From Agrobacterium tumefaciens (GTDB lineage: Bacteria; Pseudomonadota; Alphaproteobacteria; Rhizobiales; Rhizobiaceae): a stretch of 64,000 nucleotides of DNA. Positions 31,498-59,432 of this stretch are shown here, in pieces. Made by a program: the position numbers and the translations under genes. Every line of letters begins with the position of its first letter. Within the stretch, counting starts at the first letter, position 1. The stretch lies in the NCBI RefSeq assembly GCF_013337285.1, contig NZ_SUPW01000011.1:1-64000 (forward strand), written 5' to 3'. A model generated the notes under the pieces. It saw only the letters and a list, made by a program, of their open reading frames with translations, had not been told where the DNA came from and did not search any database.

Positions 31498-31507
31498 CGG
31501 TTTTTCC

Positions 31508-32907: not shown

Positions 32908-32995
32908 TCTTAAAACCTCCATCCAGCCGTGCGGATGGAACCGACAAGGCTGCTTGGCCATGAGGTAAAGCCGAAAATGCCTCGACGGCAAGAAT

Positions 32996-33034
32996 TTTGT
33001 GCGTTATATGATTTTTGTTCGTATATCGCACAAA
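32996..33034. promoter_or_regulatory. PcaR-type palindrome between pcaI and pcaR
   Basis: TTTGTGCG (32996-33003) and CGCACAAA (33027-33034) form perfect 8-bp arms. Further symmetric bases (TATA, GA) lie inside the 39-bp span. It is the dominant symmetric element in the 139-base pcaI-pcaR space, and IclR-family regulators such as PcaR bind sites of this kind. Confidence 0.7.
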
Positions 33035-33777
33035 TGGAGCTTGAGCATGGCCGTCAGTGAAAGAGACATGATGGGCGGTCTCGCCAAGGGATTGCGGGTG
33101 ATCGAGGCCTTCAGCGCCGAGCGTCCACGGCTTTCTATTTCCGATGCCGCCGAGATCGCCGGGCTTGATCGTGCGACGACACGGCGCTGTCTGCTCACGC
33201 TTTCGGAACTCGGTTATGCGGCTTATGACGGCAAATTCTTCACCGTCACACCCAAGGTGCTACGGCTCGGCACCGGCTGTCTGGCCACAATGCCGCTGCC
33301 GAAGATCGTGCAGCCGCTGCTAGACCGCCTGTCGGAGGAGATTGGCCAGAGCACCTCAGTCTCCATTCTGGATGAGACCGAGATCGTTTATGTGGCGCGC
33401 GCCGCCCAGCAACGCGTCATGTCGATTGCGCTGATGCCGGGCTCACGCCTGCCCGCTTATTGCACCTCCATGGGCCGCGTTCTTCTTTCGGCGCAGCCAA
33501 ACGAGCGGCAACACGAAATCCTCGAGGCCTCCCGCCTGGTCGCCCGCACGGAAAGAACGATCACCAGCATGGACGCCCTGCTCGCCGAGATTGAGGCGAC
33601 CGGCCATCGCGGTTATGCGCTGATCGATCAGGAAGTCGAAATCGGTCTTCGCTCCATCGCCGTGCCGCTGAAAAGCGTGCGCGGCCAGACGGTCGCCGCG
33701 CTCAATGTCGGGCTCGCCGCCTCGGTGGCCTCGATGGAGGATCTGGTGGAACGCTACCTGCCGGAACTTCTTGCCGT

Positions 33778-36929
<3,152 letters not shown>

Positions 36930-36952: not shown

Positions 36953-37023
36953 GATTTTCATCGATAATGTCATTTTACTTAACCGGAACTGGCTTGCAAT
37001 ATCTTTCGCAGGAGGAGCACATC

Positions 37024-37821
37024 ATGCATTTTCTGCGCTGCGGCGAGACTGTGATCCATTATCGCATTAAGGGATTGGACAGCGGCAAGCCGGTCATCGC
37101 CTTCATCAATTCGCTCGGCACCGATTTCCGCATCTGGGATGCGGTGATAGAAGCGCTGGGCGATGATTATGCGTATGTCCTGCACGACAAGCGCGGCCAC
37201 GGGCTTTCCGATGTCGGGCGCACTCCCTATTCCATCGACGATCATGCCGGTGACCTGATCGAACTCCTCGATCATCTCGGCGTAAAAAGCGCCATTATCT
37301 GGGGCCTCTCGGTCGGTGGCCTCATTGCGCAGGGGATTTATGCGCGCCGTCCCGATCTCGTCCGCGCCCTGGTGCTTAGCAACACCGCCCACAAGATCGG
37401 CACGGCCGAAATGTGGAATACACGCATCGACAAGATTGCCGCCAACGGTCTCGCCTCGCTGGTCGATCCCGTCATGGAGCGCTGGTTTACGTCCGCTTTC
37501 CGCACACCGGACAATGCCGCTTATGCCGGTGCGCGCAACATGTTATGCCAGCAGCCGGAAGCGGGTTACAGCGGCACCTGCGCCGCCATCCGCGATGCGG
37601 ATTTTACGCAAGAAGCAGGCCGCTTCGCCGTGCCGACACTCTGTGTCGCAGGCGATCAGGACGGCTCCACCCCGCCGGAACTGGTGCGGTCGCTGGCCGA
37701 TCTTATCCCTGCGAGCCGCTTTGTAACCATTGCCGGCTGCGGACACATTCCCTGCCTTGAACAGCCGCGTGCCTACACACAGGCAGCGTGCATTTTTCTG
37801 AAGACCTTGCCGGAGCATTGA
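37024..37821 (+). CDS. pcaD: beta-Ketoadipate enol-lactone hydrolase
   Basis: The 265-residue alpha/beta hydrolase converts enol-lactone to beta-ketoadipate. The nucleophile S96 is in IIWGLSVGG, the acid in AGDQDGSTPP and the His in GCGHIPCLEQP. GGAGGAGCACATC precedes the ATG at 37024; the longer frame from 36967 overlaps the promoter. It is the first gene of the PcaQ-activated operon, four bases from pcaC. Confidence 0.96.
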   Translation: MHFLRCGETVIHYRIKGLDSGKPVIAFINSLGTDFRIWDAVIEALGDDYAYVLHDKRGHGLSDVGRTPYSIDDHAGDLIELLDHLGVKSAIIWGLSVGGLIAQGIYARRPDLVRALVLSNTAHKIGTAEMWNTRIDKIAANGLASLVDPVMERWFTSAFRTPDNAAYAGARNMLCQQPEAGYSGTCAAIRDADFTQEAGRFAVPTLCVAGDQDGSTPPELVRSLADLIPASRFVTIAGCGHIPCLEQPRAYTQAACIFLKTLPEH

Positions 37822-37824
37822 CCG

Positions 37825-38996
<1,172 letters not shown>

Positions 38997-38998
38997 CC

Positions 38999-39619
38999 AT
39001 GGTTCAGCCGCTCAACTATTTCAAAGAGACCGCCTCGCAGACGGCAGGCCCCTATGTGCATATCGGCTGCACACCCAATTTCGTCGGCATCGAAGGCGTG
39101 TTCGAAAAGGATCTCGGATCTGGCGCGCTCTACAACGACAAGGCCCGTGGTGAGCGCATCAGCGTGCGCGGCACTGTCTATGACGGCGCAGGCATGCCGC
39201 TGAAGGACGCGCTGATCGAAATCTGGCAGGCCGACACGGACGGTTTTTACAACAGCCCGAGCGAGACACGCGGCAAGGCCGATCCGAATTTCACCGGCTG
39301 GGGCCGCTCACCCGGCGACATGGATACCGGCGAATTCATTTTCGAGACGATCAAGCCGGGTACCGTGCCTTTCCGCGACGGCCGGCCGATGGCGCCGCAC
39401 ATCACCTTCTGGATCGTGGCGCGCGGCATCAATATCGGTCTACAGACCCGCATGTATTTTCCGGAAGAGCAGGAGGCCAATGCAGCCGATCCGGTTCTTG
39501 CACGCGTCGAACAGAAAAGCCGCATCGCCACGCTTGTCGCCAGGAAGGAAGAGGGGAATATCTATCGTTTCGATATCCGTCTTCAGGGCGAAGGCGAAAC
39601 GGTGTTTTTCGATATCTAA
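38999..39619 (+). CDS. pcaG: Protocatechuate 3,4-dioxygenase alpha subunit
   Basis: The 206-residue subunit is a shorter relative of PcaH (TASQTAGPYVHIGC, DALIEIWQADTDGFYNS, GTVPFRDGRPMAPHITFWIVARGINIGL) but lacks the HxH iron ligands, as expected for the alpha chain. It forms the active site with PcaH. It starts two bases after pcaH and ends 18 before pcaB. Confidence 0.97.
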   Translation: MVQPLNYFKETASQTAGPYVHIGCTPNFVGIEGVFEKDLGSGALYNDKARGERISVRGTVYDGAGMPLKDALIEIWQADTDGFYNSPSETRGKADPNFTGWGRSPGDMDTGEFIFETIKPGTVPFRDGRPMAPHITFWIVARGINIGLQTRMYFPEEQEANAADPVLARVEQKSRIATLVARKEEGNIYRFDIRLQGEGETVFFDI

Positions 39620-39637
39620 GCGGAAGCGAAACCTGAG

Positions 39638-40699
39638 ATGAGCCTTACACCCTTCGAACATCCGTTTTTGTCAGGCCTTTTCGGCGATAGCGAGATCGTC
39701 GAACTGTTTGCGGCAAAGGCGGATATCGACGCCATGGTCCGCTTCGAAACGGCTCTGGCGGAAGCGGAAGCCGAGGCCGGTATTCTGGCGGATGGTGTGG
39801 CGGAAGCCATCGTTTCGGGGCTGACCGACTTTGCCGCCGATATGACAGCACTTCGCCATGCCGTCGCAAAGGATGGCGTGGTGGTGCCGGAACTGGTGCG
39901 GCAGATGCGGGCAGCGGTCGCCGACAAGGCAGCGGACAAAGTGCATTTCGGCGCGACCAGCCAGGATGTCATCGATACCAGCCTGATGCTGCGGCTGAAG
40001 GCGGCAACTGAAATCATCACTATCCGCCTCGGCCACCTCATCGATACGCTCAGTGACCTTTCCTCCCGTGACGGCCATAACCCGCTGACGGGTTATACCC
40101 GCATGCAGGCCGCCATCGGCATTACCGTCGCCGACCGGGCGACAAGTTGGACCGCGGCACTGGAGCGCCACCTGCTGCGGCTCGAAACCTTTGCGCAGAA
40201 TGGTTTTGCCCTGCAGTTCGGCGGGGCGGCCGGTACGCTGGAAAAACTCGGCGACAATGCCGATACAGTCCGCGCCGATCTCGCAAAACGGCTTGGCCTT
40301 GCCGATAGACTGCAGTGGCAGAGCCAGCGCGACGGCATCGCCGAATTCGGCAATATTCTCTCCCTCATCACCGGCGCGCTCGGCAAGTTCGGACAGGATA
40401 TCGCGCTGATGGCCGAACTCGGCGCGGAGATCCGCCTTTCCGGCGGCGGCGGCTCCTCGGCCATGCCGCACAAGCAGAACCCGGTCAATGCGGAAACGCT
40501 GGTGACGCTTTCGCGCTTCAACGCCGTGCAGATATCGGCGCTGCATCAGTCCCTCGTCCATGAACAGGAACGTTCCGGCGCGGGCTGGATGCTCGAATGG
40601 ATGACGCTGCCACAAATGGTGACGGCAACAGGCGCCGCACTTCTGATTGCCGAACGGCTTGCCGGGCAGATCGACAGGCTGGGAGCCGGCGAAGACTAG
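39638..40699 (+). CDS. pcaB: 3-Carboxy-cis,cis-muconate cycloisomerase
   Basis: The 353-residue protein belongs to the fumarase/aspartase fold. It has HFGATSQDVIDTSLMLRLK and the signature GGGGSSAMPHKQNPVNAET. It lactonises beta-carboxymuconate to gamma-carboxymuconolactone. It is about 100 residues shorter than the long Pseudomonas PcaB, a size usual in Agrobacterium. It ends the pcaDCHGB operon. Confidence 0.95.
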   Translation: MSLTPFEHPFLSGLFGDSEIVELFAAKADIDAMVRFETALAEAEAEAGILADGVAEAIVSGLTDFAADMTALRHAVAKDGVVVPELVRQMRAAVADKAADKVHFGATSQDVIDTSLMLRLKAATEIITIRLGHLIDTLSDLSSRDGHNPLTGYTRMQAAIGITVADRATSWTAALERHLLRLETFAQNGFALQFGGAAGTLEKLGDNADTVRADLAKRLGLADRLQWQSQRDGIAEFGNILSLITGALGKFGQDIALMAELGAEIRLSGGGGSSAMPHKQNPVNAETLVTLSRFNAVQISALHQSLVHEQERSGAGWMLEWMTLPQMVTATGAALLIAERLAGQIDRLGAGED

Positions 40700-41063
40700 C
40701 CGAAAGACTGGTGTTTTCCAAAAGAAGACAGGTTCCCGGACGCTTCCAATGGGAAAGCCAAGGCAGCGCAACCGTGCATCGAAACCGCTTGCGAATTCTC
40801 GCCTTACACATTGATATAAAAAGACTTTCCGGAAAAACTAAAAAGAAGAAAAAACCGCTTTTGAGGCGCTTTTCACCGGGCATGACGCTTGACTCTAAAA
40901 TGAACTAACTGGTACAAACATTCACGTTAAGACATGCCGGGGAAGAGGAAGAAGAGCTTCCAAGGCAGGGCAAAACAATGGAGGGCTTTGGCGCCACCAG
41001 GTGTCCAAAGCGATACGGACAAGGCGAAACGCCTGTCCGGACCCGAACGGGTTGGGAGGAAGA
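40700..41063. other. Intergenic stretch between pcaB and the quinate/shikimate-type importer
   Basis: This 364-base stretch contains a promoter-like element with an overlapping operator-like motif (40889-40918) and a long leader of about 140 bases before the permease start. No credible small gene was found. The open frames here lack family-like residues. The lower-GC stretch at 40790-40860 is unremarkable apart from A-runs. Confidence 0.5.
40889..40918 (+). promoter_or_regulatory. Promoter and putative TetR operator of the importer/aroE/aroQ operon
   Basis: TTGACT (40889-40894) and TACAAA (40913-40918) are -35 and -10 candidates with an 18-base spacer. AACTAACTGGTACAAA (40903-40918) overlaps the -10 and matches a motif in the tetR-quiC space (46279-46294) at 11 of 16 positions, four of the five differences being transitions. 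Binding by the local TetR protein is inferred. Confidence 0.55.
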
Positions 41064-41732
41064 ATGTCTTACAGTCTCGATTTTTCGGTGGTCATGGACC
41101 GCCTTCCCGAGCTGCTTTTAGCCTGTCTGGCAACGATCGGCCTTGCAATCGCCGGCATGTCGCTCGCCACCGTCATCGGCGTTCTCGGCGTCGTTGCCCG
41201 TCGTTCGCGGTTCAAGCTGCTACGCAATCTGGTCATCGGTTTTGTGGAAGTCATCCGCAACACGCCGTTTCTGGTGCAGATATTCTTCATCTTCTTCGCC
41301 CTGCCGCAGATCGGCATCAAGCTTAACCCCACCGTCACCGCCATCATTGCGCTGGCTTTGAACGGCGGCGCTTATGCCATTGAAATTATTCGCGGCGGCG
41401 TGGATTCCATTCCCAAGGGGCAGGTGGAAGCTGGACTGGCGCTCGGCCTGCAACGGTCGCAAATCTTCCGCCATATCATTCTGAAGCCGGCATTGCGCGC
41501 GGTCTATCCGTCGCTCACCAGCCAGTTCATCATGCTGACGCTGACGACATCGGTCTGCACCTCGATCGCGGCTTACGAACTGACATCGGTGGCGCAGCAA
41601 ATCGAGGCGGACACCTTCCGGTCGTTCGAGGTCTATTTCTCGATCACGCTGCTTTACCTGGTCATTTCCTCGCTGATGATGGGCGTTTTCTCGCTCATCT
41701 CCCGCGCATCCTTCAGCTATCCGGTCAAGTGA
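41064..41732 (+). CDS. Polar amino-acid-type ABC permease 1 (putative quinate/shikimate importer)
   Basis: The 222-residue membrane protein is of the HisM/GlnP class: NTPFLVQIFFIFFALPQIG, the EAA loop VDSIPKGQVEAGLALGLQRSQIFRHIILKPALRAVYPSL and several hydrophobic helices. GGGAGGAAGA before the ATG at 41064 decides the start. The operon continues with a second permease, binding protein, ATPase, AroE and AroQ. The usual substrate of this class is an amino acid; here the linked enzymes suggest a hydroaromatic acid. Confidence 0.9.
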   Translation: MSYSLDFSVVMDRLPELLLACLATIGLAIAGMSLATVIGVLGVVARRSRFKLLRNLVIGFVEVIRNTPFLVQIFFIFFALPQIGIKLNPTVTAIIALALNGGAYAIEIIRGGVDSIPKGQVEAGLALGLQRSQIFRHIILKPALRAVYPSLTSQFIMLTLTTSVCTSIAAYELTSVAQQIEADTFRSFEVYFSITLLYLVISSLMMGVFSLISRASFSYPVK

Positions 41733-41742
41733 GGAGAAGACA

Positions 41743-42393
41743 ATGGAATCCATCGGTCCCAACCAACTCTTCTTCCTGATGCAAGGCCTGAAATGGACGC
41801 TGGCGCTGACCGTGATCGGCTTCATCGGCGGCGGTGTCTTCGGTCTCTGCGTGGCGCTTGCCCGTGTTGCCGATAGCGTGGCGGTCCAGCGTGCAAGCAC
41901 GGCTTTCATTGCGGTGTTCCAGGGAACGCCGCTGCTGATGCAGCTTTTCGTGGTTTATTACGGCGTGGCGCTCGCGGGTCTCAATGTCGATGCCTGGGTC
42001 GCCGTCGCCATCGCGTTTACCTTGCATGCCAGCGCCTTTCTCGGAGAAATCTGGCGCGGCGGCATCCAGGCGGTGCCGAAAGGCCAGACAGAGGCCGCCA
42101 ACGCGCTCGGCCTGCATTATATCTCGCGCATGAAGGACGTGGTTTTGCCGCAGGCCTTCAAGATTTCGCTGCCGGCCACCATCGGTTTTCTGGTGCAACT
42201 CATCAAAGGCACCTCGCTTGCGGCCATCGTCGGTTTCGTCGAGTTGTCGCGTGCCGGACAGATCGTCTCCAACCAGACGTTCCGCCCGCTCACCGTTTTC
42301 GCCATCGTCGGCATCATCTATTTCCTGATCTGCTGGCCGCTCTCCCTCTGGGGTGCGGGCGTGGAGAGACGGATGCAGGCCAATTCCCGTTAA
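41743..42393 (+). CDS. Polar amino-acid-type ABC permease 2
   Basis: The 216-residue protein shares the HisM class pattern: FQGTPLLMQLFVVYYGVAL and GGIQAVPKGQTEAANALGLHYISRMKDVVLPQAFKISLP. It is 10 bases from permease 1 and completes the membrane channel as a heterodimer. GGAGAAGACA precedes the ATG. Confidence 0.9.
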   Translation: MESIGPNQLFFLMQGLKWTLALTVIGFIGGGVFGLCVALARVADSVAVQRASTAFIAVFQGTPLLMQLFVVYYGVALAGLNVDAWVAVAIAFTLHASAFLGEIWRGGIQAVPKGQTEAANALGLHYISRMKDVVLPQAFKISLPATIGFLVQLIKGTSLAAIVGFVELSRAGQIVSNQTFRPLTVFAIVGIIYFLICWPLSLWGAGVERRMQANSR

Positions 42394-42435
42394 CAACCAA
42401 AACCATCTCATCAGCTTTGTAAGGAGGAGCAAAAG

Positions 42436-43275
42436 ATGAAAACCACCACCATGAAACTCTCTCGCCGCGCTCTGCTCGCGCTTGCCGCGGCAACGGTTGC
42501 GCTACCCTTTGTCGCGCCGGTCGACGCCTTCGCCGGCACGGTCGATGAGGCCAAGGCCAAGGGCAAGGTCGTCATCGGCATTCAGGGCGACAATTCGCCA
42601 TGGGGCTTCGTCAATTCCACCGGCGTACAGGACGGTCTCGATGCCGATATCGGCAAGGCCTTTGCCGAATATCTTGGCGTCAAGGTCGAATTCGTGCCGC
42701 TTGCCGTGGCAAACCGCATTCCGGCCCTGCTGACCGGCAAGGTCGACCTGTTGTTCGCAACCATGGGCATGACGGCCGAGCGCGCCAAGACCATCCAGTA
42801 CTCCAAGCCCTATGCCGGCAACGTGTTGTCCGTCTATGGCCCGAAAGACAAGAAGATCGCCGGCTATGACGATCTGACCGGCGTTTCCGTTGGCGTGCCG
42901 AAGTCAAGCGCCATGGACACCTCGATCACCGCAGGTGCGGGCTCCAACGCAAATATCCTGCGCTTCGACGATGACGCCGCCAACATTCAGGCGCTGATCT
43001 CGGGCCAGGTGGAAGCCGTCGGCGGCAATCAGTTTTATGGCGACCGGTTGAACAAGGCGGCGGAAGGCAAATACGAGCCGAAGTTCGATCTGACGACGCT
43101 TTATAACGGCGCCGGCACCCGCCCGGGAGAAAAGGACTGGAACGAGACCGTCAACGCCTTCCTCGACAAGATCAAGTCCGATGGCCAGCTGGCCAAGATC
43201 TACGACAAGTGGATGAAGCGCGAAGTTCCCGCCTTCCCGGACAGCCTGCCCGACATCCCCTTCACCGTGAAGTAA
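42436..43275 (+). CDS. Amino-acid-type ABC substrate-binding protein (putative hydroaromatic acid binder)
   Basis: The 279-residue protein is a family 3 periplasmic binding protein: [65 protein letters not shown] and [19 protein letters not shown]. The signal region has twin arginines before the hydrophobic core ([18 protein letters not shown]), so Tat export is possible. The Arg that normally grips the amino acid carboxylate seems replaced in the [18 protein letters not shown] region as far as can be judged by eye; a ligand without an alpha-amino group would fit. Confidence 0.88.
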
Positions 43276-43288
43276 TCCGGAGGTTTCC

Positions 43289-44050
43289 ATGCCACAATCC
43301 ACAACTGCCGAGGTTCCGCTTATCGCCCTTCAAGGGGTTGGAAAGTGGTATGGAGCCTTCCACGCGCTTAAAAATATCGACATGACGGTTCGCAAGGGTG
43401 AAAAAATCGTCCTTTGCGGCCCGTCCGGTTCGGGAAAATCCACCCTTATCCGGTGCATCAACCATCTGGAGGAAATCCAGCAGGGCAAGATCACGGTGGA
43501 GGGAACGACGCTTTCGGATTCCAGCCGCGCCATCGATGCGGTTCGCCGCGAGGTGGGCATGGTGTTCCAGAGCTTCAACCTCTTCCCGCACAAGACCATC
43601 ATGGAAAACTGCACGCTCGCCCCCATGCGGGTGAAGGGGCTTTCGAAAGCCGAAGCGGAAGCGACGGCACGCAAATATCTGGAGCGCGTGCGCATTCTCA
43701 ATCAGGCCGATAAATATCCGGCGCAGCTTTCCGGCGGCCAGCAGCAGCGCGCGGCGATTGCCCGTGCGCTGTGCATGGAGCCGAAAGCCATGCTGTTCGA
43801 TGAGCCGACTTCGGCGCTCGATCCGGAAATGGTGAAAGAAGTGCTCGACACCATGATCGGCCTTGCCCGTGACGGCATGACGATGATCTGCGTCACCCAT
43901 GAAATGGGTTTCGCCCGGCAGGTGGCAGACCGCGTGGTCTTCATGTCGGAAGGCGAGATCATCGAGGAAGGCCCGCCGGACGAGTTCTTCCGCGACCCCA
44001 AGCACCAGCGCACCCGCACGTTCCTCGGCGAAATTCTCGCCCACCATTGA
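43289..44050 (+). CDS. Amino-acid-type ABC ATP-binding protein (GlnQ class)
   Basis: The 253-residue ATPase has Walker [20 protein letters not shown]-loop [17 protein letters not shown], signature [15 protein letters not shown], Walker [17 protein letters not shown] and switch [16 protein letters not shown], all typical of GlnQ/HisP. It completes the importer. A perfect inverted repeat follows it before aroE. Confidence 0.92.
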
Positions 44051-44100
44051 GGTTCGTCCATCTGCCCTCAGACTTGTGGCGACCTCTCGGCATACGCGAC

Positions 44101-44174
44101 GTCATCCTCGGGCTTGACCCGAGGATCCACTGATTTCAACACGCTAGGATCCTCGGGTCAAGCCCGAGGATGAC
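44101..44174. repeat. Perfect 28-bp inverted repeat between importer and aroE
   Basis: Bases 44101-44128 and 44147-44174 are exact inverted copies separated by 18 bases. Each arm itself contains a smaller palindrome (CTCGGGCTTGACCCGAG). The CCTCGGG-CTTGA-CCCGAGG core is a repeat known in intergenic spaces of alphaproteobacteria. It can form a very stable hairpin and probably reduces read-through from the importer genes into aroE-aroQ or protects their 3' end. Confidence 0.8.
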
Positions 44175-44252
44175 GAAGGAGAGGTTTCAACACCTCGCCA
44201 GCAACCTGAAGGCAGGCGCAGCCTGCCCCGAACCGACGAACGACACCCGATC

Positions 44253-45122
44253 ATGACAGAAACAAAATCCTTCAAGGTCGGCCTGATTGGCGCCGATATC
44301 CAGCTTTCCAAATCGCCGGCGCTGCACATGCGCGAAGGGGCTGCCCACGGGCTCGATTATACTTATGAGCTGGTCGACGTTACCGCCCGCAAGCTGCCAG
44401 CCAGCGCCCTTGCCGATCTGCTCGAAGAGCTGGAAACGCGCGGCTTTGCCGGCACCAACATTACCCATCCCTTCAAACAGGCGGTCATTCCGCACCTGCA
44501 TGAATTGTCGGACGATGCCCGCATGCTGGGTGCAGTCAACACCGTCGTCTTCAAAGACGGTCGCCGCATCGGCCACAATACCGACTGGTACGGGTTTTAC
44601 GAAAGTTTCGTGCGCGGCCTGCCGGATGCAAAACGTGACCGGGCGCTGCTGGTCGGCGCTGGCGGTGCGGGTGTGGCCGTGGCCCACGCCGCGCTGAAGC
44701 TCGACATCGCCCGTCTCGATATTTTCGACCGCGATTTCCCGCGGGCGGAAAGGTTGGCTGGCGAACTCAATGCCCGTTTCGGCGAAGGCCGCGCCTTTGC
44801 CGTTGACGACCCGGCCGCCTCCCTGCCCTTCGCCGATGGTCTCATCCATGCGACGCCAATGGGTATGCCCGCCCACCCCGGCATGCCGGTTGCGGCCGAT
44901 CTCATCGAACAGCGGCACTGGGTGGCCGATATCGTCTATATGCCGCTGGTCACCGAGCTTCTGGCGACGGCAGCAACAAAAGGCTGTCGCACCCTGCCCG
45001 GCGGCGGCATGACCGTGTTTCAGGCCGTCGGCGCATTCCGTCTCTTCTGCGGCCGCGAGCCGGATGCGGAACGGATGACGGCGCATTTCACCGAACTTTG
45101 CATGGCGGAGGGGGTGGCATGA
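44253..45122 (+). CDS. aroE: Shikimate/quinate dehydrogenase (AroE family)
   Basis: The 289-residue enzyme has the substrate-binding SKSP (19-22), catalytic K75 (NITHPFK) and D111 (NTDWYGF) and the cofactor loop GAGGAG (135-140). It interconverts shikimate or quinate with the 3-dehydro form. The lack of the basic patch typical of NADP enzymes ([10 protein letters not shown] follows the second strand) suggests NAD, hence a catabolic role. Its stop overlaps the aroQ start by four bases. A separate biosynthetic aroE is expected elsewhere in the genome. Confidence 0.92.
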
Positions 45123-45562
45123 GCCTTTTTACTGTTTTGAACGGACCCAATCTCAACCTGCTCGGCCAGCGCCAGCCGGAAATCTACGGCTATGAGACCA
45201 TGGCCGATGTGGAGACTAACTGCCGCAAGGTGGCCGATGCTGCCGGCCATGAGCTGTTCTTCGCCCAGAGCAACCGCGAATATGAGCTGATCGACTGGAT
45301 TCACGACGCGCGGGGCAAATCGTCGGGCATTGTCATCAATCCCGGCGCTTTTACCCATACATCAGTGGCGATCCTAGATGCGCTGAATGCCTTCGAAGCG
45401 CCTGTCATCGAGGTCCATATTTCCAACATCCACAAACGCGAGGTTTTCCGCCACCATTCCTACGTCTCGACCCGCGCCGAAGGCGTGATCGCCGGTCTCG
45501 GCATCGAAGGTTACGAAGTGGCGCTTCGCCACCTCATCAACCGTTTTTCCCGATCGTCGTGA
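45119..45562 (+). CDS. aroQ: Type II 3-dehydroquinate dehydratase
   Basis: The 147-residue enzyme starts [19 protein letters not shown] with the catalytic Tyr (Y23). It has [10 protein letters not shown] and the active His in [17 protein letters not shown]. It dehydrates 3-dehydroquinate to 3-dehydroshikimate, linking quinate to QuiC. GGAGGGGGTGGC precedes the ATG at 45119. Its last 26 bases overlap the convergent TetR gene. Confidence 0.95.
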
Positions 45563-46241
45563 TATGGGCGGGCGTCAGCACATAACGCAGTACCATGTCG
45601 CTGACATGCCGCGACAATGTCTCCTGACCGTTTTCGGTAAACAGGCCGTCGCCGAAGATGAACGAAAAGGTCTCGGCGTTCGAAACGTTGAAGAAGGACA
45701 GCGCGCTGATCTGCCAGTGCAGTTCCAGCGCATCGATGCCATCGCGGAAGATGCCGCCTTTCTGGCCGCGCAGCAGCACGCTTTCCAGCGCGTCGATCGC
45801 CGGCCGGTTCAACTGGCGGATTGTTTCGGAGGACTGCATGTGGCGGCCGTGGTGAATGTTTTCGATCATCACCATGCGGATGAAGGCCGGATTGCGCCGG
45901 TGGTGGTCGAAGGTGAACCGACAGAGCTTGTCGAGCGCCGCCGCCGGCTCCAGATCGTCAAGCTCCAGATCGCTTTCACCGCCGCGCACCTTGGCATAGG
46001 CTTCCTCAAGCACGCGCTGGTAGAGGCTCTCCTTGTCGCTGAAATAATAATAGATCATGCGCTTGGACGTGCGCGTGCGGGCCGCAATTTCATCGATGCG
46101 GGCGCCGGAAAGACCGTTCTGCGAAAACTCTTCCATGGCGACCGAAAGAATGTCGCGGCGAACCCCTTCCGGATCGCGCTTCGCCTGCCGGCTGTCTCGG
46201 GTTCCGTTCGACGTCGCGCTTTTGGTCATCATCCATTCCAT
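45537..46241 (-). CDS. TetR/AcrR family regulator of the quinate/shikimate genes
   Basis: The 234-residue protein has the TetR helix-turn-helix ([55 protein letters not shown]) and a helical effector domain with several His ([23 protein letters not shown]). ATGs at 46241, 46232 and 46229 are possible starts. It diverges from quiC across 73 bases that hold an inverted repeat and the motif shared with the importer promoter. Control of both units is inferred. Confidence 0.9.
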
Positions 46242-46269
46242 CGGTGGGGCGGCGGCCTGCGGTCACGCC

Positions 46270-46294
46270 CTGATTATTAACCAATCAGTACATA
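46270..46294. promoter_or_regulatory. Operator-like dyad and shared motif in the tetR-quiC space
   Basis: CTGATT (46270-46275) and AATCAG (46283-46288) form an inverted repeat with a 7-base centre. The overlapping AACCAATCAGTACATA (46279-46294) matches the importer promoter motif AACTAACTGGTACAAA. A common reading is AACYAAYYRGTACAWA. It lies about 20 bases upstream of quiC. Confidence 0.6.
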
Positions 46295-46314
46295 AGGCTG
46301 AAAAGGAAGGCAAT

Positions 46315-48252
46315 ATGGCGAGCTATGACACAGGCAGACAGAGCATGCCAATGCGCACATCCATCGCGACCGTGTCGATCAGCGGGGAATTTCCCGAAAA
46401 GCTTGCGGCCATCGCCAAGGCGGGCTTCAGTGGCGTGGAGATTTTCGAAAATGATTTCCTGACCTATGACGCCTCACCGCGCGAGGTGAAGGCGCTGGCC
46501 GCCGATCACGGTCTGGATATCACGCTTTTCCAGCCATTCCGCGATTTCGAGGGCATGCCGGAACCACACCGCGCCCGCGCCTTCGACCGCGCCCAGCGAA
46601 AATTCGATATCATGGGCGAACTTGGCACCGATCTGATGCTGATCTGTTCCAATGTCTCGCCGGTATCGCTCGGCGGCATCGACCGCGCCGCCGCCGATTT
46701 CCATGACCTTGGCGAGCTTGCGGCAAAACACGGCGTGCGCGTCGGTTACGAGGCGCTGGCCTGGGGCCGGCATATCAGCGATCACCGCGACGCATGGGAA
46801 GTGGTGCGCCGCGCCGACCACGCCAATGTCGGCATCATTCTCGACAGTTTCCACACGCTGTCGCGCAAGATTGATCCCAATTCGATCCGCTCCATTCCCG
46901 GCGACAAGATTTTCATCGTGCAGTTGGCCGATGCGCCGCTGATCGACATGGACCTGCTCTACTGGAGCCGCCATTTCCGCAACATGCCCGGCGAAGGCGA
47001 CCTGCCGGTGGTGGATTTTATGCGCGCCGTGGCCGCAACGGGTTATAGCGGCCCGCTGTCGCTGGAAATCTTCAACGACCAGTTTCGCGGCGGCTCGGCC
47101 CGCCTGCTCGCCGAGGACGGTCACCGTTCGCTCATCAACCTCATGGATCAGGTGCGCCGTCTCGAACCTGATATTCGCATCGATGTGCCCGCCATGCCGG
47201 AACGGGTGCAAACGCAAGGGGTGGAATTCGTCGAATTCACCACGGCACCGGAAGAAAAAGCCCATCTGGAGACATTGCTCGCCACGCTCGGCTTCGAAAG
47301 AACCGGCAAGCACCGCAATCGCGATGTCAATCTTTATACGCAGGGCGATATCCGTATTGTCATCAACACCAGCGATGAAGGCGACAGTTTCGCCGGTGCG
47401 TCCTATTCCATCCACGGCACCAATGCCTATGCCTTCGGCCTGAAGGTCGATGATGCGCAGGCAGCCCTTGCCCGGGCCGAAGCGCTCGGCGCGCCGACCT
47501 TCACGGAACCGCGCAAGACAGGCGAAGTCGCCGTTCCCGCCATTCAGGGCGTGGGCAATGGCGTCATCTATTTCCTTGACGGTTCGCCGGCGCTCGCCTC
47601 CATCTGGGACAATGAATTCGTGCCGGAAGAAGGCCAAACACCGGTAGGCGATGCCGGGCTGAAGCGTATCGATCACCTGGCGCAAACAACGCATTATGAT
47701 GAAATGCTGACCTGGCTCCTGTTCTACACCTCGCTGTTTTCCACCCGCCGCACGCCGATGGTGGATGTGGTCGATCCGGGCGGTCTGGTGCGCAGCCAAG
47801 CGATCGAAAGCGTTCCCTCACCGCATTTCCGCCTGACCATGAACGGCGCGGACAACCGCAAGACCTTTGCCGGCAAATTTCTGGCCGAGGGTTTCGGCAC
47901 CAGCATCCAGCACATCGCGTTTGCCACCGACGATATTTTCGCCACCGCCAAGGCAATGCAGGCGCGCGGTTTCCACGCCCTGCCGATCTCCCGCAATTAT
48001 TACGACGACCTCGAAGCCCGTTTCGGGCTTGAACCGGAATTTTCCGATGCCTTGCGGGAGGCGAGCATTCTTTATGACCGCGACGACAATGGTGAATATT
48101 TCCAGATCTATAGCCGCACTTTCGGTGAAGGTTTCTTCTTCGAGATCATCGAGCGGCGTGGGGCTTATGCCGGTTATGGTGCGATGAACGCGCCCTTCCG
48201 CATTGCCGCGCAACGGCGCCTCGCCCCACCGGTCGGCATGCCGCGGGAATAG
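46315..48252 (+). CDS. quiC: Two-domain 3-dehydroshikimate dehydratase (QuiC, with HPPD-like domain)
   Basis: The 645-residue protein is a fusion. Residues about 12-290 form a TIM barrel with candidate metal ligands E146, D177, Q203 and E251, the dehydratase site that aromatises 3-dehydroshikimate to protocatechuate. Residues about 300-640 resemble 4-hydroxyphenylpyruvate dioxygenase, with the metal triad H454, H533 and E610 still in place. AAGGAAGG before the ATG at 46315 decides the start; the frame is open from 46057, which is antisense to the TetR gene. It connects the importer/AroE/AroQ genes to pcaHG. The second domain's activity is not settled. Confidence 0.93.
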   Translation: MASYDTGRQSMPMRTSIATVSISGEFPEKLAAIAKAGFSGVEIFENDFLTYDASPREVKALAADHGLDITLFQPFRDFEGMPEPHRARAFDRAQRKFDIMGELGTDLMLICSNVSPVSLGGIDRAAADFHDLGELAAKHGVRVGYEALAWGRHISDHRDAWEVVRRADHANVGIILDSFHTLSRKIDPNSIRSIPGDKIFIVQLADAPLIDMDLLYWSRHFRNMPGEGDLPVVDFMRAVAATGYSGPLSLEIFNDQFRGGSARLLAEDGHRSLINLMDQVRRLEPDIRIDVPAMPERVQTQGVEFVEFTTAPEEKAHLETLLATLGFERTGKHRNRDVNLYTQGDIRIVINTSDEGDSFAGASYSIHGTNAYAFGLKVDDAQAALARAEALGAPTFTEPRKTGEVAVPAIQGVGNGVIYFLDGSPALASIWDNEFVPEEGQTPVGDAGLKRIDHLAQTTHYDEMLTWLLFYTSLFSTRRTPMVDVVDPGGLVRSQAIESVPSPHFRLTMNGADNRKTFAGKFLAEGFGTSIQHIAFATDDIFATAKAMQARGFHALPISRNYYDDLEARFGLEPEFSDALREASILYDRDDNGEYFQIYSRTFGEGFFFEIIERRGAYAGYGAMNAPFRIAAQRRLAPPVGMPRE

Positions 48253-49284: not shown

Positions 49285-51105
49285 ATGACTGCCGCAAACC
49301 GCAACGCCCTCCTCTCGGTCGAAGGCCTGAGCGTCGAGTTCGGCGACAGCCGCGTCGTGGACGACATATCCTTTTCCGTGGAAGCCGGCAGGACGGTGGC
49401 GATCGTCGGCGAATCCGGATCGGGTAAATCGGTCACCTCGCTTTCGACCATGCGTCTTGCGGACATGATGGGCGCGACTTACCCCGCAGGTCGTATCCTG
49501 TTCGAAGGCCGTGATCTGCTGAAGGCCTCGCAGAAGGAGATGCGGTCGATCCGCGGCAAGGAGATCGCCATGATCTTCCAGGAGCCGATGACCTCGCTCA
49601 ACCCGGTCTTCACCATCGGCGACCAGATCTGTGAAGTGCTTGTTCTGCATGAGAAGCTGGGCAAGACGGCTGCTATGGAGCAGGCAAAGCAACTGCTCGA
49701 CATGGTGCGCCTGCCCGATGCGGCCGAGCTTTTGCACCGTTATCCGCACCAGCTTTCCGGCGGCATGCGCCAGCGGGTAATGATCGCCATGGCGCTCGCC
49801 TGCCGACCGAAGCTGTTGATCGCCGACGAGCCGACCACGGCGCTGGATGTCACCATTCAGGCACAGATTCTCAACATCATGCGCGACCTGCAAAAGCAGC
49901 TCGGCATGGGCATGGTCTTCATCACCCACGATATGGGCGTGGTGGCGGAAATGGCCGATGACGTTGTCGTCATGTGGAAGGGCAAGAAGGTCGAGGAAGG
50001 TCCGGTCAAGGATATCTTCGCCAATCCGCAGCATCCTTATACGCGCGCCCTGCTCTCCGCCGTGCCGCGCCTCGGCAGCATGACTGGTGAAGAGTTTCCC
50101 AAGCGCCTGCCGCTCACCGTGTTGCAGGATGGCCAGCCGGTCGTGGTGGGCGAAGAGCGCGTGCAGAACACCGCGAAATATGACGACAAGCCGCTGTTGT
50201 CGGTCAAGGACCTGTTCGTCCGCTTCGATATCCGCAAAAACCTGTTCGGCAAGGCGACGCACCGTTGCAGCGCGGTGCAGAAGGTCAGCTTCGATATTCA
50301 TGCCGGCGAAACGCTGGCGCTGGTGGGCGAATCCGGTTCCGGCAAATCCACCATCGGCCGCACCATCCAGCAGTTGCAGACAGCCGTATCAGGCGAAATT
50401 GCCTTCAACGGACGCAGCTATTCGCAAATGTCGTCGGCGGAACGGTTCCGCATGCGCCAGCAGGTGCAATATATCTTCCAGGACCCCTTCGCCTCGCTCG
50501 ATCCGCGCAAGACGGTCGGTTTCTCGATTGCTGAGCCGATAAACACCCATGGTTTGATCAATGATCAGAAGGCGGTACGGCGGCGGGTGGATGAATTGCT
50601 GGAGCGTGTGGGCCTCAGCTCCGAACATGCATCGCGTTATCCGCACGAGTTTTCCGGCGGCCAGCGCCAGCGTGTCTGCATCGCCCGCGCGCTCGCCTCC
50701 GACCCGAAACTCATCATCGCCGATGAGGCGCTGTCGGCGCTCGATGTCTCCATTCAGGCGCAGATCATCAATCTGTTCATGGACCTGCAGGCCGAGCGTG
50801 GTCTTGCCTATCTCTTCATCAGCCATGACATGGCGGTGGTGGAAAAGATGAGCCATCGCGTCGCCGTGCTTTATCTCGGCCAGATCATGGAAATGGGCAG
50901 CCGCCAGCAGGTCTTCGAAACGCCGACGCATGATTATACCCGCCGTCTGCTTTCGGCCGTGCCGGTTGCCGACCCGTCCGTCGAGCGCCGCATCGCCATG
51001 ATCGAGGGCGAAATACCCAACCCCGTGCGCCGTGTCGGCGATGAGCCGGCCATTCTCGCCCATGAGGAAATCAATCCGGGCCACTTTATCGCAAAGAGCG
51101 CCTGA
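49285..51105 (+). CDS. Dipeptide/oligopeptide-type ABC ATPase, two domains fused
   Basis: The 606-residue protein joins two OppD/OppF-type ATPases. The first half has [48 protein letters not shown] and [21 protein letters not shown]. The second has [48 protein letters not shown] and [15 protein letters not shown]. In the second Walker B the usual DEP is DEA. Such fusions occur in GsiA/YejF-type importers. It comes first in an operon with a binding protein, two permeases and a peptidase. Confidence 0.93.
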
Positions 51106-51147
51106 ACAACCGCGAAAAACCGCAACCATCTGAAGAGGAACAGGTAG

Positions 51148-52683
51148 ATGACAAATATCAAAAAGGGGATGACGACAACGTTCGTCGCGCTTGCGCTGGC
51201 CGGCACGGCCTTCACCGCAGCACCGGCTTTCGCCGCCGGCAAAATGACCATTTCCAGCCCGCAGGACCCCGGCAGCTGGGATCCGATCGACACCTTTCTG
51301 GTGCAATGGGCGGCCGTGGCCACCAACATCTTCGATGGCCTGACATATCGCGGCCCGGACCTGAAACTGGTTCCCGGCCTTGCCGAATCCTGGGAAGAGC
51401 TGGACGAGGGCAAGCGTATCCGCTTCAAGCTGCGCCAGAACGTCAAGTTCCATAATGGCGAGCCCTTCAACGCCGCCGCCGTCAAGTTCACCTTCGAGCG
51501 CCTTCTCGGCGAACAGGGTGCCAAAGGTCCGCAGCGCTCCAACTATGTCGCCATCGAAAGCGTCGATGTCATCGACGATTACACCGTCGACATGAAGCTG
51601 AAGGCGCCGGATCCCGTCCTGCTCACCAAGCTTGCCGGTTACGGCGGCATGATCGTTCCGCCTGCCTACATCAAGGAAAAGGGCGAGGACAATTTCAACC
51701 TCAACCCAGTCGGCACCGGCGCATTCAAATTCGTTTCCTACGCGCCGAAGACCAATATCAAGCTGGAAGCCAACCCCGATTACTGGGGCGGTGCGCCAAA
51801 ACTTTCCGAGCTTGAATATCGCTTCATCGCCGAGCCGGCGACCGCCGTTGCCGAATTGCAGGCCGGCCGCGTCGATCTCGTCATTCCGCCCACCATCCCG
51901 ATCGGCATGATCCCGGTCATCGAAGGCGATTCCAAGCTTGAGATCGTCAGCGTTCCCGGCCCGACCGTCGATGCGCTGCGTTTCAACACCCGAGACGGCA
52001 TTACCGCCGATCCGAAGGTGCGCAAGGCGATCATCATGGCCGTTGATCGCGGCACCATCGTCAAGTCGATCCTCGCCGGTCAGGCCTCGGAAATCGCCAG
52101 CTTCCAGAGCGCGCTGTCCTTTGGTTACGATGCCGATCTGAAGCCGCTGCCTTACGATCCTGAAGGCGCGAAAAAGCTGCTCGCGGAAGCCGGCGTCAAG
52201 GCAGGTGCGGCGCTGCAGATCGATATCCGCGGCAATGACGCGACGATGAACGAAGTGGCGCAGGTTATTTCCAGCTACCTCTCCATGGTCGGCATTACCG
52301 CCACCATCAAGCCCTATGAAACCAACGTGCTGCTGAACGACATCATCCCGCAGGGCAAGACCGGCGCGATGTTCCAGCAGAAATGGGGCGGCTGGACCTT
52401 CGATTACGATAACACGGCCTATTCCATGTATCACTCGGGTGAAAAGTGGAACCCTTACGACAAGGACGAGAAACTGGACAAGTTGCTGGAATCGCAGCGT
52501 CCGCTGACCGACCGTGCCGAGCGCGAAAAGATCCTCAAGGAAGTCGGCGCTTATGCCGCCGAACGCGCGCTGGAAATTCCGCTTTACAACACCAATGCCA
52601 TTTACGGCATCAACAAGCGGGTCAAGGGTTTCATCGCACCGCCGGATAACCGCCTGAAGCTTACCGACGTCACCGTCGAATAA
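51148..52683 (+). CDS. Peptide-type ABC substrate-binding protein (family 5)
   Basis: The 511-residue protein has a signal peptide (KKGMTTTFVALALAGTAFTAAPAFAAG) and the DppA/OppA pattern: GLAESWEELDEGKRIRFKLRQNVKFHNGEPFNAAAVKFTFERLL, NLNPVGTGAFKFVSYAPKTNIKLEANPDYWGG and DPKVRKAIIMAVDRGTIVKSIL. GAGGAACAGGTAG precedes the ATG. Its ligand could be a peptide or another compound; the adjacent M14-type peptidase favours a peptide or acyl-amino acid. A 10-bp hairpin follows it. Confidence 0.92.
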   Translation: MTNIKKGMTTTFVALALAGTAFTAAPAFAAGKMTISSPQDPGSWDPIDTFLVQWAAVATNIFDGLTYRGPDLKLVPGLAESWEELDEGKRIRFKLRQNVKFHNGEPFNAAAVKFTFERLLGEQGAKGPQRSNYVAIESVDVIDDYTVDMKLKAPDPVLLTKLAGYGGMIVPPAYIKEKGEDNFNLNPVGTGAFKFVSYAPKTNIKLEANPDYWGGAPKLSELEYRFIAEPATAVAELQAGRVDLVIPPTIPIGMIPVIEGDSKLEIVSVPGPTVDALRFNTRDGITADPKVRKAIIMAVDRGTIVKSILAGQASEIASFQSALSFGYDADLKPLPYDPEGAKKLLAEAGVKAGAALQIDIRGNDATMNEVAQVISSYLSMVGITATIKPYETNVLLNDIIPQGKTGAMFQQKWGGWTFDYDNTAYSMYHSGEKWNPYDKDEKLDKLLESQRPLTDRAEREKILKEVGAYAAERALEIPLYNTNAIYGINKRVKGFIAPPDNRLKLTDVTVE

Positions 52684-52708
52684 TCAGGCTGGTTTTCTGA
52701 TCAACACA

Positions 52709-52734
52709 CCTTGCCCGCCGCAATGCGGGCAAGG
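52709..52734. terminator. Perfect 10-bp hairpin between binding-protein and permease genes
   Basis: CCTTGCCCGC (52709-52718) pairs with GCGGGCAAGG (52725-52734) around a 6-base loop in the 77-base gap. There is no long T-run. It probably blocks 3' decay or attenuates, so that the binding protein is made in excess over the membrane parts. Confidence 0.65.
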
Positions 52735-52760
52735 CCGGATCTCTCTTCAAGGTAAAAAAC

Positions 52761-53684
52761 GTGGCCGGTTTCCTCATCAAGCGATTGCTGCAGGCGATTT
52801 TTGTCGTCATCGCCATCACCCTTCTCGTTTCTTTCGCCGTCCGCCTGACGGGCGATCCGGCTGTCACCATGTTCCAGGGTGGCGGCAGCATGACGGAAGA
52901 CGATCTGGCACGCATCCGCGCAGCGCTCGGCACCGACCGGCCGTTCTTCGTGCAATATTTCAGCTTTCTGAAGGGTCTCGTGACGCTCGATTTCGGCCGC
53001 AGCTTCACCGGCAGCACGCCGGTCTCGCGCCTCATCGCCGATGCCCTGCCCGCCACGCTGCTACTCGCCTTCATCTCCATGGCCGTGTCGATTGCGCTGT
53101 CTATCCCGCTCGGCATCAAGGCCGCGACCTCGCGCGGCAAGACGGCCGATCAGATGATCCGCATCTTCTCGCTCATCGGCCTGTCATTCCCCAATTTCTG
53201 GCTTGCCACCATGCTGGTGCTCCTGTTCTCCATCACGCTCGGCTGGCTGCCACCGAGCGGCATGGGCGGTTTTGCCAGCTACATCATGCCGTCAGTGACC
53301 ATGGGCGTCATCCTCACCGCCACCAATGTGCGCCTTGTGCGCACCGCCATGCTCGATACGCTGCGCTCGCAATATATCATGGTGGCGCGCGCCAAGGGCC
53401 TGAGCGAAAGCAAGGTTCTCTACAAACACGCGCTGCGCAACTGCGCCATTCCACTCATCACCTATTTCGGCCTGCAATTTGGCGGGCTGCTCGGCGGCAT
53501 CGTCGTCATCGAGCGGGTGTTCAACTGGCCGGGTCTCGGCACGCTGGCTTTCGATGCGGTCGGCGCGCGTGACTATCCCGTACTTCAGGCCGTCATCACC
53601 GTGCTGTCGCTGATGATCGTCGGCATCAACCTTCTGGTCGATATCGCCTATGGGCTTGTCGATCCGCGCATTCGCACGGAGTAA
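52761..53684 (+). CDS. Peptide-type ABC permease 1 (DppB class), GTG start
   Basis: The 307-residue membrane protein starts with GTG (MAGFLIKRLLQAIFVVIAITLLVSFAVRLTGDPA), the usual DppB N terminus, with AAGG upstream. The EAA-type loop YIMVARAKGLSESKVLYKHALRNCAIPLITYFGLQFGGLLGGIVVIERVFNWPGLG is present. It pairs with the next permease. Confidence 0.92.
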   Translation: MAGFLIKRLLQAIFVVIAITLLVSFAVRLTGDPAVTMFQGGGSMTEDDLARIRAALGTDRPFFVQYFSFLKGLVTLDFGRSFTGSTPVSRLIADALPATLLLAFISMAVSIALSIPLGIKAATSRGKTADQMIRIFSLIGLSFPNFWLATMLVLLFSITLGWLPPSGMGGFASYIMPSVTMGVILTATNVRLVRTAMLDTLRSQYIMVARAKGLSESKVLYKHALRNCAIPLITYFGLQFGGLLGGIVVIERVFNWPGLGTLAFDAVGARDYPVLQAVITVLSLMIVGINLLVDIAYGLVDPRIRTE

Positions 53685-53690
53685 GTGACG

Positions 53691-54539
53691 ATGGCTGCCA
53701 AAACCTCGCGCCTGTCGCGCTTCACCAATCTCGAATTCATCCTCGGCGCGTCCCTCACCACCGTCATCTGCCTTGCGGTCGTCTTTTCCGACGTGCTGTT
53801 TCCGGGCGGGGCGGACAAGATCGACCTGATGGCGCGCCTTGCCAAACCCTTCGCCAATGCCGCCCATCCGCTCGGCACCGATCCGCTCGGACGGGATGTG
53901 CTCGCCCGCGTCGTCGCCGGCGGCAAGATTTCGCTGCTGGTCGGTTTCACCTCGGTCATCGGCGCGGTCATCTTCGGCGTCGCGGTCGGCCTGGTCGCCG
54001 GTTATTATCGCGGCTTCTGGGATATGCTGGTCATGCGCTTTGCCGATATCCAGCTCGCCATGCCCTTCATTCTGCTCGCCATCACCTTCATCGCCATTGT
54101 CGGCGGCAGCCTTACCAACACCATCATCCTGCTGATCATATCGCAATGGGTGCAATATGCCCGCCTCGTGCGCGGCTCGGTGCTGACGCTGCGGGAGCGG
54201 GAATTCATTCTCTCGGCCCGCGCCATCGGCGTGAAGGACTGGCGCATCATTCTCCAGCACCTGCTCCCGAACCTCATCGGCCCGGTCATCGTGCTGATGA
54301 CGCTCAATGTCGCCAACAACATCCTGCTTGAAAGCAGCCTCACCTTCCTCGGCCTCGGCGTTGATCCCACCATTCCGAGCTGGGGCGGCATGCTGGCGGA
54401 CGGCCGCACTTACTTGCAGACGGCATGGTGGGTCAGCGTCTTCCCCGGCCTTGCCATCCTGCTCACCGTGCTCGGCCTCAACCTTCTCGGCGACTGGTTG
54501 CGCGACAGCCTTGACCCAACAGGCAGAACCTCGAGGTAA
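53691..54539 (+). CDS. Peptide-type ABC permease 2 (DppC class)
   Basis: The 282-residue protein has the DppC pattern: HPLGTDPLGRDVLARVVAGGKISLLVGF and the loop FILSARAIGVKDWRIILQHLLPNLIGPVIV, then ESSLTFLGLGVDPTIPSWGGMLADGR. GGAG nine bases before the ATG at 53691 favours this start; a GTG at 53685, right after the previous stop, is also in frame and would add two residues. Confidence 0.92.
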   Translation: MAAKTSRLSRFTNLEFILGASLTTVICLAVVFSDVLFPGGADKIDLMARLAKPFANAAHPLGTDPLGRDVLARVVAGGKISLLVGFTSVIGAVIFGVAVGLVAGYYRGFWDMLVMRFADIQLAMPFILLAITFIAIVGGSLTNTIILLIISQWVQYARLVRGSVLTLREREFILSARAIGVKDWRIILQHLLPNLIGPVIVLMTLNVANNILLESSLTFLGLGVDPTIPSWGGMLADGRTYLQTAWWVSVFPGLAILLTVLGLNLLGDWLRDSLDPTGRTSR

Positions 54540-59315: not shown

Positions 59316-59332
59316 CCGGCGACACCGGCATC

Positions 59333-59385
59333 GCCGCCACAATGGCGGCATTCTTGAAACGGTCGAACCGCCTTGCAGCGGTTCG
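59333..59385. terminator. Two tandem hairpins between binding-protein and permease genes
   Basis: GCCGCC/GGCGGC (59333-59338 with 59344-59349) is followed by a perfect 8-bp stem CGAACCGC/GCGGTTCG (59364-59371 with 59378-59385). No long T-run follows. They lie in the 117-base gap before the first permease gene and probably stabilise the binding-protein message or attenuate read-through. Confidence 0.6.
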
Positions 59386-59432
59386 GTTCCGGCCCGGACG
59401 GGCGTTACAGCACCGGGAGGAGTTTTTTCAAC

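Follow-up and report, generated by a model that had tools for sequence, protein, structure and literature searches.

Organization of the locus

The window analyzed here, a stretch of 64,000 nucleotides from Agrobacterium tumefaciens (contig NZ_SUPW01000011.1, positions 1 to 64,000), contains the genes of an ABC importer of the glutamine/histidine class next to genes for enzymes that act on hydroaromatic acids, and we address here what that importer carries and how it may be regulated. The source genome comprises 5.0 Mb, and its nearest relatives, judged by the periplasmic binding protein of the importer, are Agrobacterium and Rhizobium rhizogenes. The following genes make up the cluster:

41064 to 41732, + strand: ABC permease A, PAAT type (222 amino acids; TIGR01726 above cut-off)
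41743 to 42393, + strand: ABC permease B, PAAT type (216 amino acids; TIGR01726 above cut-off)
42436 to 43275, + strand: periplasmic binding protein, proposed to bind quinate/shikimate (279 amino acids; PF00497 at 117 bits, cut-off 26.4; in the linked clade and with the pocket signature described below)
43289 to 44050, + strand: ABC ATPase, GlnQ-like (253 amino acids; best NCBIfam match GlnQ at 308 bits, below the cut-off of 379)
44253 to 45122, + strand: AroE, shikimate (possibly quinate) dehydrogenase (289 amino acids; NF009201 at 440 bits, cut-off 235)
45119 to 45562, + strand: AroQ, type II 3-dehydroquinate dehydratase (147 amino acids; TIGR01088 at 193.5 bits, cut-off 169.85)
45537 to 46241, - strand: TetR-family regulator (234 amino acids; weak TetR-family matches only, the best to RutR at 51 bits; relatives in other QuiC/AroE clusters)
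46315 to 48252, + strand: QuiC, two-domain 3-dehydroshikimate dehydratase (645 amino acids; NF042435 at 649 bits, cut-off 1200; a conserved GGAAGG precedes the ATG)

The starts of AroQ and QuiC are probably those given, 45119 and 46315. One operon supplies two permeases that match TIGR01726, a binding protein that matches PF00497 and a GlnQ-like ATPase, so that 41064-44050 is a complete PAAT-family (glutamine/histidine-class) ABC importer; its proteins belong to ABC families, and DctP, DctQ or DctM proteins of the TRAP class are not among them. The permease, binding-protein and ATPase families are those of the known PAAT importers (glutamine GlnHPQ, histidine, cystine, ectoine EhuABCD), from which the window importer differs in that its proposed ligand has no amino group, and the equivalog models for named PAAT substrates all score below their cut-offs on it. 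The original prediction, made from the sequence alone, had placed an importer of this class here in the same direction as aroE and aroQ, and the family-model matches bear this out. It had also called quiC divergent, which is incorrect: quiC shares the + strand with aroE, aroQ and the importer genes, and the only gene divergent from it is that of TetR, the one member missing from an inventory that was otherwise right about the importer, AroE, AroQ and QuiC.

The importer keeps company with hydroaromatic genes

Relatives of the binding protein were collected by a scan with one genome per species, which returned 106, and the best 80 loci were kept with at most 8 kb on each side. These loci were fetched by binding-protein similarity alone, and window-type AroE, AroQ or QuiC is found near the binding-protein gene in 78 of them; the two others, L035 and L039, are short contigs (5.8 and 4.2 kb). 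Window-type AroE is present in 39 of the 80 and some AroE match in 76, with AroQ in 64, QuiC in 72, TetR in 43 and PcaH in 29. The order of these genes is fluid. A reverse-oriented QuiC followed by forward-oriented binding protein, AroQ, permease A, permease B and ATPase is found in 31 loci, the window order in 25 and the window order minus AroQ in 11, and the remaining 13 display 11 further strings, some owed to contig ends. AroQ lies between the binding-protein and permease genes in 32 loci and, in three Paracoccus loci, between the binding-protein and ATPase genes. The persistence of this association through so much gene shuffling is strong comparative evidence that the importer and AroE, AroQ and QuiC share a function.

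The association is peculiar to this binding protein. In the same genome, the other 18 PF00497 matches lie in 16 regions, none of which has a match to AroE, AroQ, QuiC or TetR; two of these regions are shortened by contig ends, and not all 18 matches are necessarily transport proteins. The loci of nine more distant binding proteins (39-47% identity) lack both AroE and AroQ, and three of them show a QuiC-like match at about 31%. Within the taxonomic order of the window, 6 of 297 genomes encode a binding protein of the linked clade (G000, G023, G187, G188, G281, G112), and QuiC is present in 6 of 6 as compared with 73 of the 291 others (chance of 6 of 6 about 3e-4, kinship ignored). In G112 and G188 QuiC lies on another contig than the binding-protein gene, and the QuiC match of G281 is a fragment at a contig end. 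A scan of 398 genomes of the phylum gave binding-protein matches at E <=1e-80 in 7, all in the window's taxonomic order; Paracoccus was added by the species-wise scan.

Two further kinds of gene were observed at these loci. An oxidoreductase of the GFO/IDH/MocA family is present in 29 of the 80 ABC loci and in 10 of the 77 other QuiC loci described below (L075:12348-13382 and L144:10754-11860 by Pfam; also L157, L170, L171, L173, L176, L177, L189, L193, L217 and L227) and is possibly an unrecognized hydroaromatic dehydrogenase. Two Rhizobiaceae genomes have a QuiC-like (30%) and a PcaH-like (31-32%) match beside the ABC genes (L141:11116 and 13212; L142:4099 and 6171), perhaps a further branch of ring processing.

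The binding-protein pocket

Binding proteins scoring at least 150 bits numbered 104, of which 95 are linked to the hydroaromatic genes and 9 are unlinked, and these were compared together with the window protein and 6 paralogues; a separate alignment (A1) held the binding proteins of 43 of the 80 loci and that of the window. Eight residues, Q50, N53, W56, V91, R94, R116, N198 and Y223 in window numbering, are present in all 95 linked proteins. Both arginines are retained in 9 of 9 unlinked proteins, whereas N198 is missing from all 9, and each of Q50, N53, W56, V91 and Y223 occurs in a single one of them. Among the five PDB alignments listed, those of 5t0w, 5tuj and 2yjp place an Asp opposite N198, and those of AncQR and 1xt8 have a gap next to it. 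In this family of binding proteins an arginine holds the carboxylate of the ligand and an aspartate its amino group. Since the arginine is kept and Asn replaces Asp, an acid without an amino group would suit the pocket, and the signature is no more than suggestive of such a ligand.

For the tree, near-copies (>=93% identity) were removed and 74 rows kept. All linked rows fall into one clade of 63 with support of 99/97, which also takes in three unlinked members, namely L039 (a cut contig) and, as long branches close to the base, L145 and L146. The AncCDT-1 protein ranks first among PDB entries, and a special relationship to cyclohexadienyl dehydratase was considered and dropped: the dehydratase-named entry 5jos ranks lower, and the top rank of AncCDT-1 is discounted because consensus-like ancestral proteins rank high.

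Two different binding proteins occur in one importer cluster in 8 of the 80 loci (L005, L007, L008, L010, L014, L022, L044, L064). The second copy is 52-74% identical to the window protein and carries E66, S109 and P159 in L005, L007, L008, L010, L014 and L022. The paired proteins may divide quinate and shikimate between them.

A shared operator-like site

Two operator-like sites and a possible promoter accompany the TetR gene and its neighbors:

40901 to 40916, + strand: operator-like dyad TGAACTAACTGGTACA before the importer operon, one of two genomic matches of TKAACYNNNNRGTACA
46277 to 46292, + strand: operator-like dyad TTAACCAATCAGTACA between TetR and quiC, the second of the two genomic matches, conserved in 37 sequences
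40889 to 40918, + strand: possible promoter of the importer operon, weak and assigned by eye (TTGACT at 40889-40894, an 18-base spacer, TACAAA at 40913-40918), overlapping the operator

A consensus promoter scan did not return the TTGACT/TACAAA pair among its matches and instead gave TTCACC/TAAAAT at 40872-40901. The start of the module in the original prediction, 40889, is the first base of the TTGACT in front of the operator.

In the 5.0 Mb of the genome the dyad TKAACY-N4-RGTACA is matched only twice, once in front of the importer and once in front of TetR/quiC. An earlier pattern was built from both window sites, and its uniqueness alone proves little because it was derived from them; TKAACYNNNNRGTACA has a free four-base spacer and is still informed by those sites, and its backward control pattern also has 2 genomic matches. 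A first motif test, in which one 18-mer was shuffled, gave a mean match of 11.12 against a shuffled mean of 9.78 and a shuffled maximum of 11.98. Among 41 sequences of the 235 bp in front of permease A, the dyad is the most conserved 14-mer. The motif is conserved in the TetR/quiC region as well (37 sequences), though less strongly there than the ribosome site and the quiC start.

A looser dyad, WACYNNNNRGTW, has a background frequency of 1.9% (133 of 6960 random 250-bp segments drawn from the same loci). Upstream of permease A, 42 of the 44 loci with TetR contain it, versus 2 of the 51 that lack TetR, and the contigs of the latter two (L035, L039) end before TetR would be reached. For the region in front of the binding-protein gene the corresponding counts are 0 of 44 and 2 of 51. 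The looser dyad precedes the TetR gene in 34 of the 38 close ABC loci and in 5 of the 6 more distant ones; the figures for TRAP loci and for loci that have neither importer are 9 of 11 and 2 of 4. In L064, L065, L066 and L081 (Bosea, a Hyphomicrobiaceae genome and Azorhizobium), TetR and importer are divergent and have one common site. Comparison thus shows that presence of the dyad follows presence of the TetR gene, the loci being related; the operator claim rests on this comparison and on the whole-genome count.

GntR-like regulator genes were noticed, by reading, near QuiC/AroE in an ABC locus lacking TetR (L075:4356-5820) and in two TRAP loci (L161:3101-3796 and L166:5863-6537); a GntR-like protein is a possible second regulator of the module.

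These results bear on the proposal that the annotation is correct, the importer carrying polar amino acids and being next to the quinate genes without a link to them in function. The family is built on amino-acid importers, and the visible public names of the relatives are those of polar amino acid or generic binding proteins. However, the linkage persists where the genes have been rearranged, and the other PF00497 proteins of the genome do not show it; N198 stands opposite the Asp of three of the five PDB alignments, whose role in the family is that described above, and the dyad of the importer is shared with quiC. We regard an amino-acid ligand as quite improbable.

Enzymes of the module

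The closest solved relatives of AroE are 3jyo, named a quinate/shikimate dehydrogenase, and 2nlo, both at 238 bits, the next scoring 131, and AroE matches the wider shikimate dehydrogenase model NF009201 above its cut-off. QuiC has two domains and aligns from end to end, with NF042435 covering residues 3-623 of a 635-amino-acid form; its solved relative 5hmq (581 bits, residues 13-635) was named a 4-hydroxyphenylpyruvate dioxygenase by its depositors. The genome encodes one further AroE copy (32% identical) and one further AroQ copy (50% identical), and the AroE and AroQ of the cluster therefore look like extra, pathway-specific copies.

AroQ has no match in 16 of the 80 loci, three of which (L033, L035, L039) are on cut contigs. 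As shikimate would not need AroQ, such loci could fit that substrate; on the other side, the S. meliloti stretch that encodes a quinate TRAP transporter also lacks an AroQ match, and the window genome has a second AroQ. The same 16 loci without AroQ nearby would fit import of 3-dehydroquinate or 3-dehydroshikimate, which a quinate dehydrogenase of the membrane would form outside the cytoplasm; periplasmic pyrroloquinoline quinone (PQQ)-type quinate dehydrogenases do exist in other bacteria. Against a dehydro-acid ligand, which we consider unlikely, the cluster contains an AroE whose type comes nearest to 3jyo, the NAD quinate/shikimate dehydrogenase, and 76 of the 80 loci retain an AroE match of some kind.

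TRAP and MFS importers in the corresponding place

QuiC has 81 matches in the 297 genomes, and 77 loci without this ABC importer were taken (those of G000, G023, G187 and the G281 fragment being set aside). Within 7 kb of QuiC, 31 of the 77 have a TRAP DctM match, 1 a ShiA-like MFS permease and 45 neither; more strictly, a TRAP transporter stands together with AroE, AroQ or TetR in 21 (for example L155, L161, L166, L179, L180, L185). TRAP proteins were confirmed by Pfam in all eight cases tried, and the transporters of these 21 clusters are probable quinate or shikimate importers. The MFS case, L229, has its ShiA-like gene by QuiC, AroQ, AroE and TetR.

One TRAP system has been characterized by experiment. 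According to PMC3454389, the Sinorhizobium meliloti binding protein SMb20036 binds D-quinate with a dissociation constant (Kd) of 5.9 nM and shikimate at about 0.1 mM, the latter perhaps due to contamination in the authors' view, and its gene is induced 8.7-fold by quinate and adjoins the AroE gene SMb20037. In the matching stretch of pSymB, AroE is 57% and TetR 47% identical to the window proteins, and the dyad precedes TetR. The stretch carries no gene annotation; we infer that its DctM, DctP and AroE frames are the published SMb genes from the way they are arranged and from the DctP frame, whose 338 residues include E27 and end in Q338, the two ends given for the core protein in PMC3454389. 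SMb20034-36 thus resembles the window system in its AroE and TetR neighbors and its type of dyad, whereas it is a TRAP transporter, unrelated to ABC importers, with a strong preference for quinate over shikimate (PMC3454389). An experimentally grounded quinate importer has the same types of neighboring enzyme and regulator as the window importer.

Paired weak ATPase matches (24-29%) were observed beside QuiC in L170, L173, L193, L212, L213, L214, L217, L218 and L219. They perhaps resemble LivG/LivF of a HAAT-type ABC importer, another candidate class for the same acids.

Neighboring genes

Genes for the remainder of the pathway lie upstream of the importer:

30292 to 32910, - strand: pcaF, pcaJ, pcaI (3-oxoadipate to central metabolites; TIGR02430, TIGR02428, TIGR02429 above cut-off)
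32999 to 33808, + strand: pcaR-type regulator (TIGR02431 at 341 bits, cut-off 285)
34822 to 35991, + strand: pobA, 4-hydroxybenzoate 3-monooxygenase (TIGR02360 at 689 bits, cut-off 538.7)
35985 to 36929, - strand: pcaQ, regulator of the pca operon (TIGR02424 at 460 bits, cut-off 304)
36967 to 40699, + strand: pcaD, pcaC, pcaH, pcaG, pcaB (protocatechuate to 3-oxoadipate; NCBIfam models above cut-off)

The pob and pca genes match their models, and from position 30292 at pcaF to the quiC end at 48252 the distance is 17.96 kb, in agreement with the full path in about 18 kb that had been predicted. The genes pcaDCHGB, pcaQ, pobA, pobR, pcaR and pcaIJF are in common with the A. tumefaciens supraoperonic cluster atu4538-atu4549 (PMC12285266); the terms quinate, shikimate and ABC transporter do not appear in the text of that paper.

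This proximity raises the question of whether the importer instead carries protocatechuate, 4-hydroxybenzoate or a quinate ester such as chlorogenate. Pca genes are close in the window and in 29 of the 80 loci; AroE, AroQ or QuiC, however, accompany the importer in 78 of the 80 and PcaH in those 29 only, and the TetR/dyad system is also found beside the quinate TRAP transporter. A ligand of this kind is very unlikely.

Two REP-like inverted repeats of the form ATCCTCGGG...CCCGAGGAT lie at 44103-44172, between the ATPase and aroE genes. Downstream of quiC, genes identified by reading encode a peptide-type ABC importer followed by a peptidase-like protein (49285-54539) and a branched-chain-type ABC importer (58071-62763).

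Proposed function and its standing among known systems

We propose, with a probability of about 0.85, that this set of genes serves the catabolism of plant hydroaromatic acids and includes a dedicated importer of quinate and/or shikimate, under the control of the adjacent TetR protein. The predicted ligand of the binding protein encoded at 42436-43275 is one of these two acids or both, which the ATPase and both permeases would carry into the cell. By the known chemistry of their families, AroE would produce 3-dehydroshikimate from shikimate and possibly 3-dehydroquinate from quinate, AroQ would convert 3-dehydroquinate to 3-dehydroshikimate, and QuiC would convert the latter to protocatechuate, with PcaHGBCD and PcaIJF finishing the route. 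TetR is predicted to repress the importer operon and quiC through the dyads at 40901-40916 and 46277-46292 and to be released by a hydroaromatic ligand, and in related bacteria a TRAP transporter or, in one locus, an MFS permease is found in the corresponding place. Four partly independent lines, namely linkage, the pocket signature, the operator shared with quiC and the TRAP transporter in the corresponding place, argue for the predicted role of the importer in quinate/shikimate catabolism.

Several observations weigh against this proposal. Many of the compared loci are close relatives, so the counts are not independent, and the visible names among the 120 listed of 2075 relatives are polar amino acid or generic binding proteins. 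AroE reaches 255 bits with NF010631, the equivalog for NAD+ quinate/shikimate dehydrogenase, whose cut-off is 515, and QuiC falls short of the NF042435 equivalog cut-off (649 versus 1200 bits). Asn at position 198 also occurs in L087, an unlinked paralogue of the same genome, and the dyad is absent before permease A in L043 and L144 despite the presence of TetR. The 24-kb S. meliloti stretch has no AroQ or QuiC match, and the TRAP query proteins from other QuiC loci are only 26-38% identical to those of S. meliloti, so that the substrate of these transporters is a further step of inference. Finally, the window genome has other candidate carriers, a TRAP binding protein that shares 43% identity with SMb20036 and an MFS protein that shares 35% with ShiA; AroE, AroQ, QuiC or TetR matches were not found near either gene.

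Among known systems, ShiA, QuiX and QsuA are MFS permeases for shikimate/quinate; their substrates are those proposed for the window importer, and they are an unrelated class of protein. The Corynebacterium glutamicum qsu system has AroQ and a two-domain dehydratase as in the window and differs in importer class and regulator. Its quinate/shikimate dehydrogenase 3jyo is, like the window enzyme, an AroE-type dehydrogenase, the window protein lying below the NF010631 cut-off. Rhizobium leguminosarum RL4709 has been called a shikimate MFS transporter (PMC3333776). MFS permeases had been named as the usual route in the original prediction, and such importers are known; they are not the sole known route, a TRAP binding protein with nanomolar quinate affinity having been published (PMC3454389). 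The R. leguminosarum PAAT genes pRL80060/64 were considered as the same importer and rejected, the pRL8 stretch having aminotransferase and homoserine genes; PMC3333776 likens them to a mimosine importer. A PAAT-type importer for quinate/shikimate was not found among the papers listed from the open-access literature, to which the search extended (subscription papers lying outside its scope), which agrees with the novelty expected at the outset. Import of plant acids by ABC, TRAP or MFS transporters is in itself familiar, and a PAAT-class importer for a hydroaromatic acid, which would be unusual in that family, appears to be new.

Implications

Looking beyond the window, we think it likely that a branch of amino-acid importers has been re-specialized to cyclic hydroxy acids without an amino group, as one of several interchangeable importers (PAAT ABC, TRAP, MFS and perhaps HAAT ABC) in a single hydroaromatic module, often under one type of TetR operator, and that a whole clade of polar amino acid binding proteins is misnamed. 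If so, the importer clade in Rhizobium, Agrobacterium, Bosea, Azorhizobium and Paracoccus needs a new name, high-affinity hydroaromatic uptake would gain a further transporter class, and the clade would present a case in which recognition of the amino group was lost in a family built to read it. The operator makes the regulon open to direct test and may supply a sensor for shikimate/quinate. Both acids are common in plants and serve as food for bacteria that live at roots.

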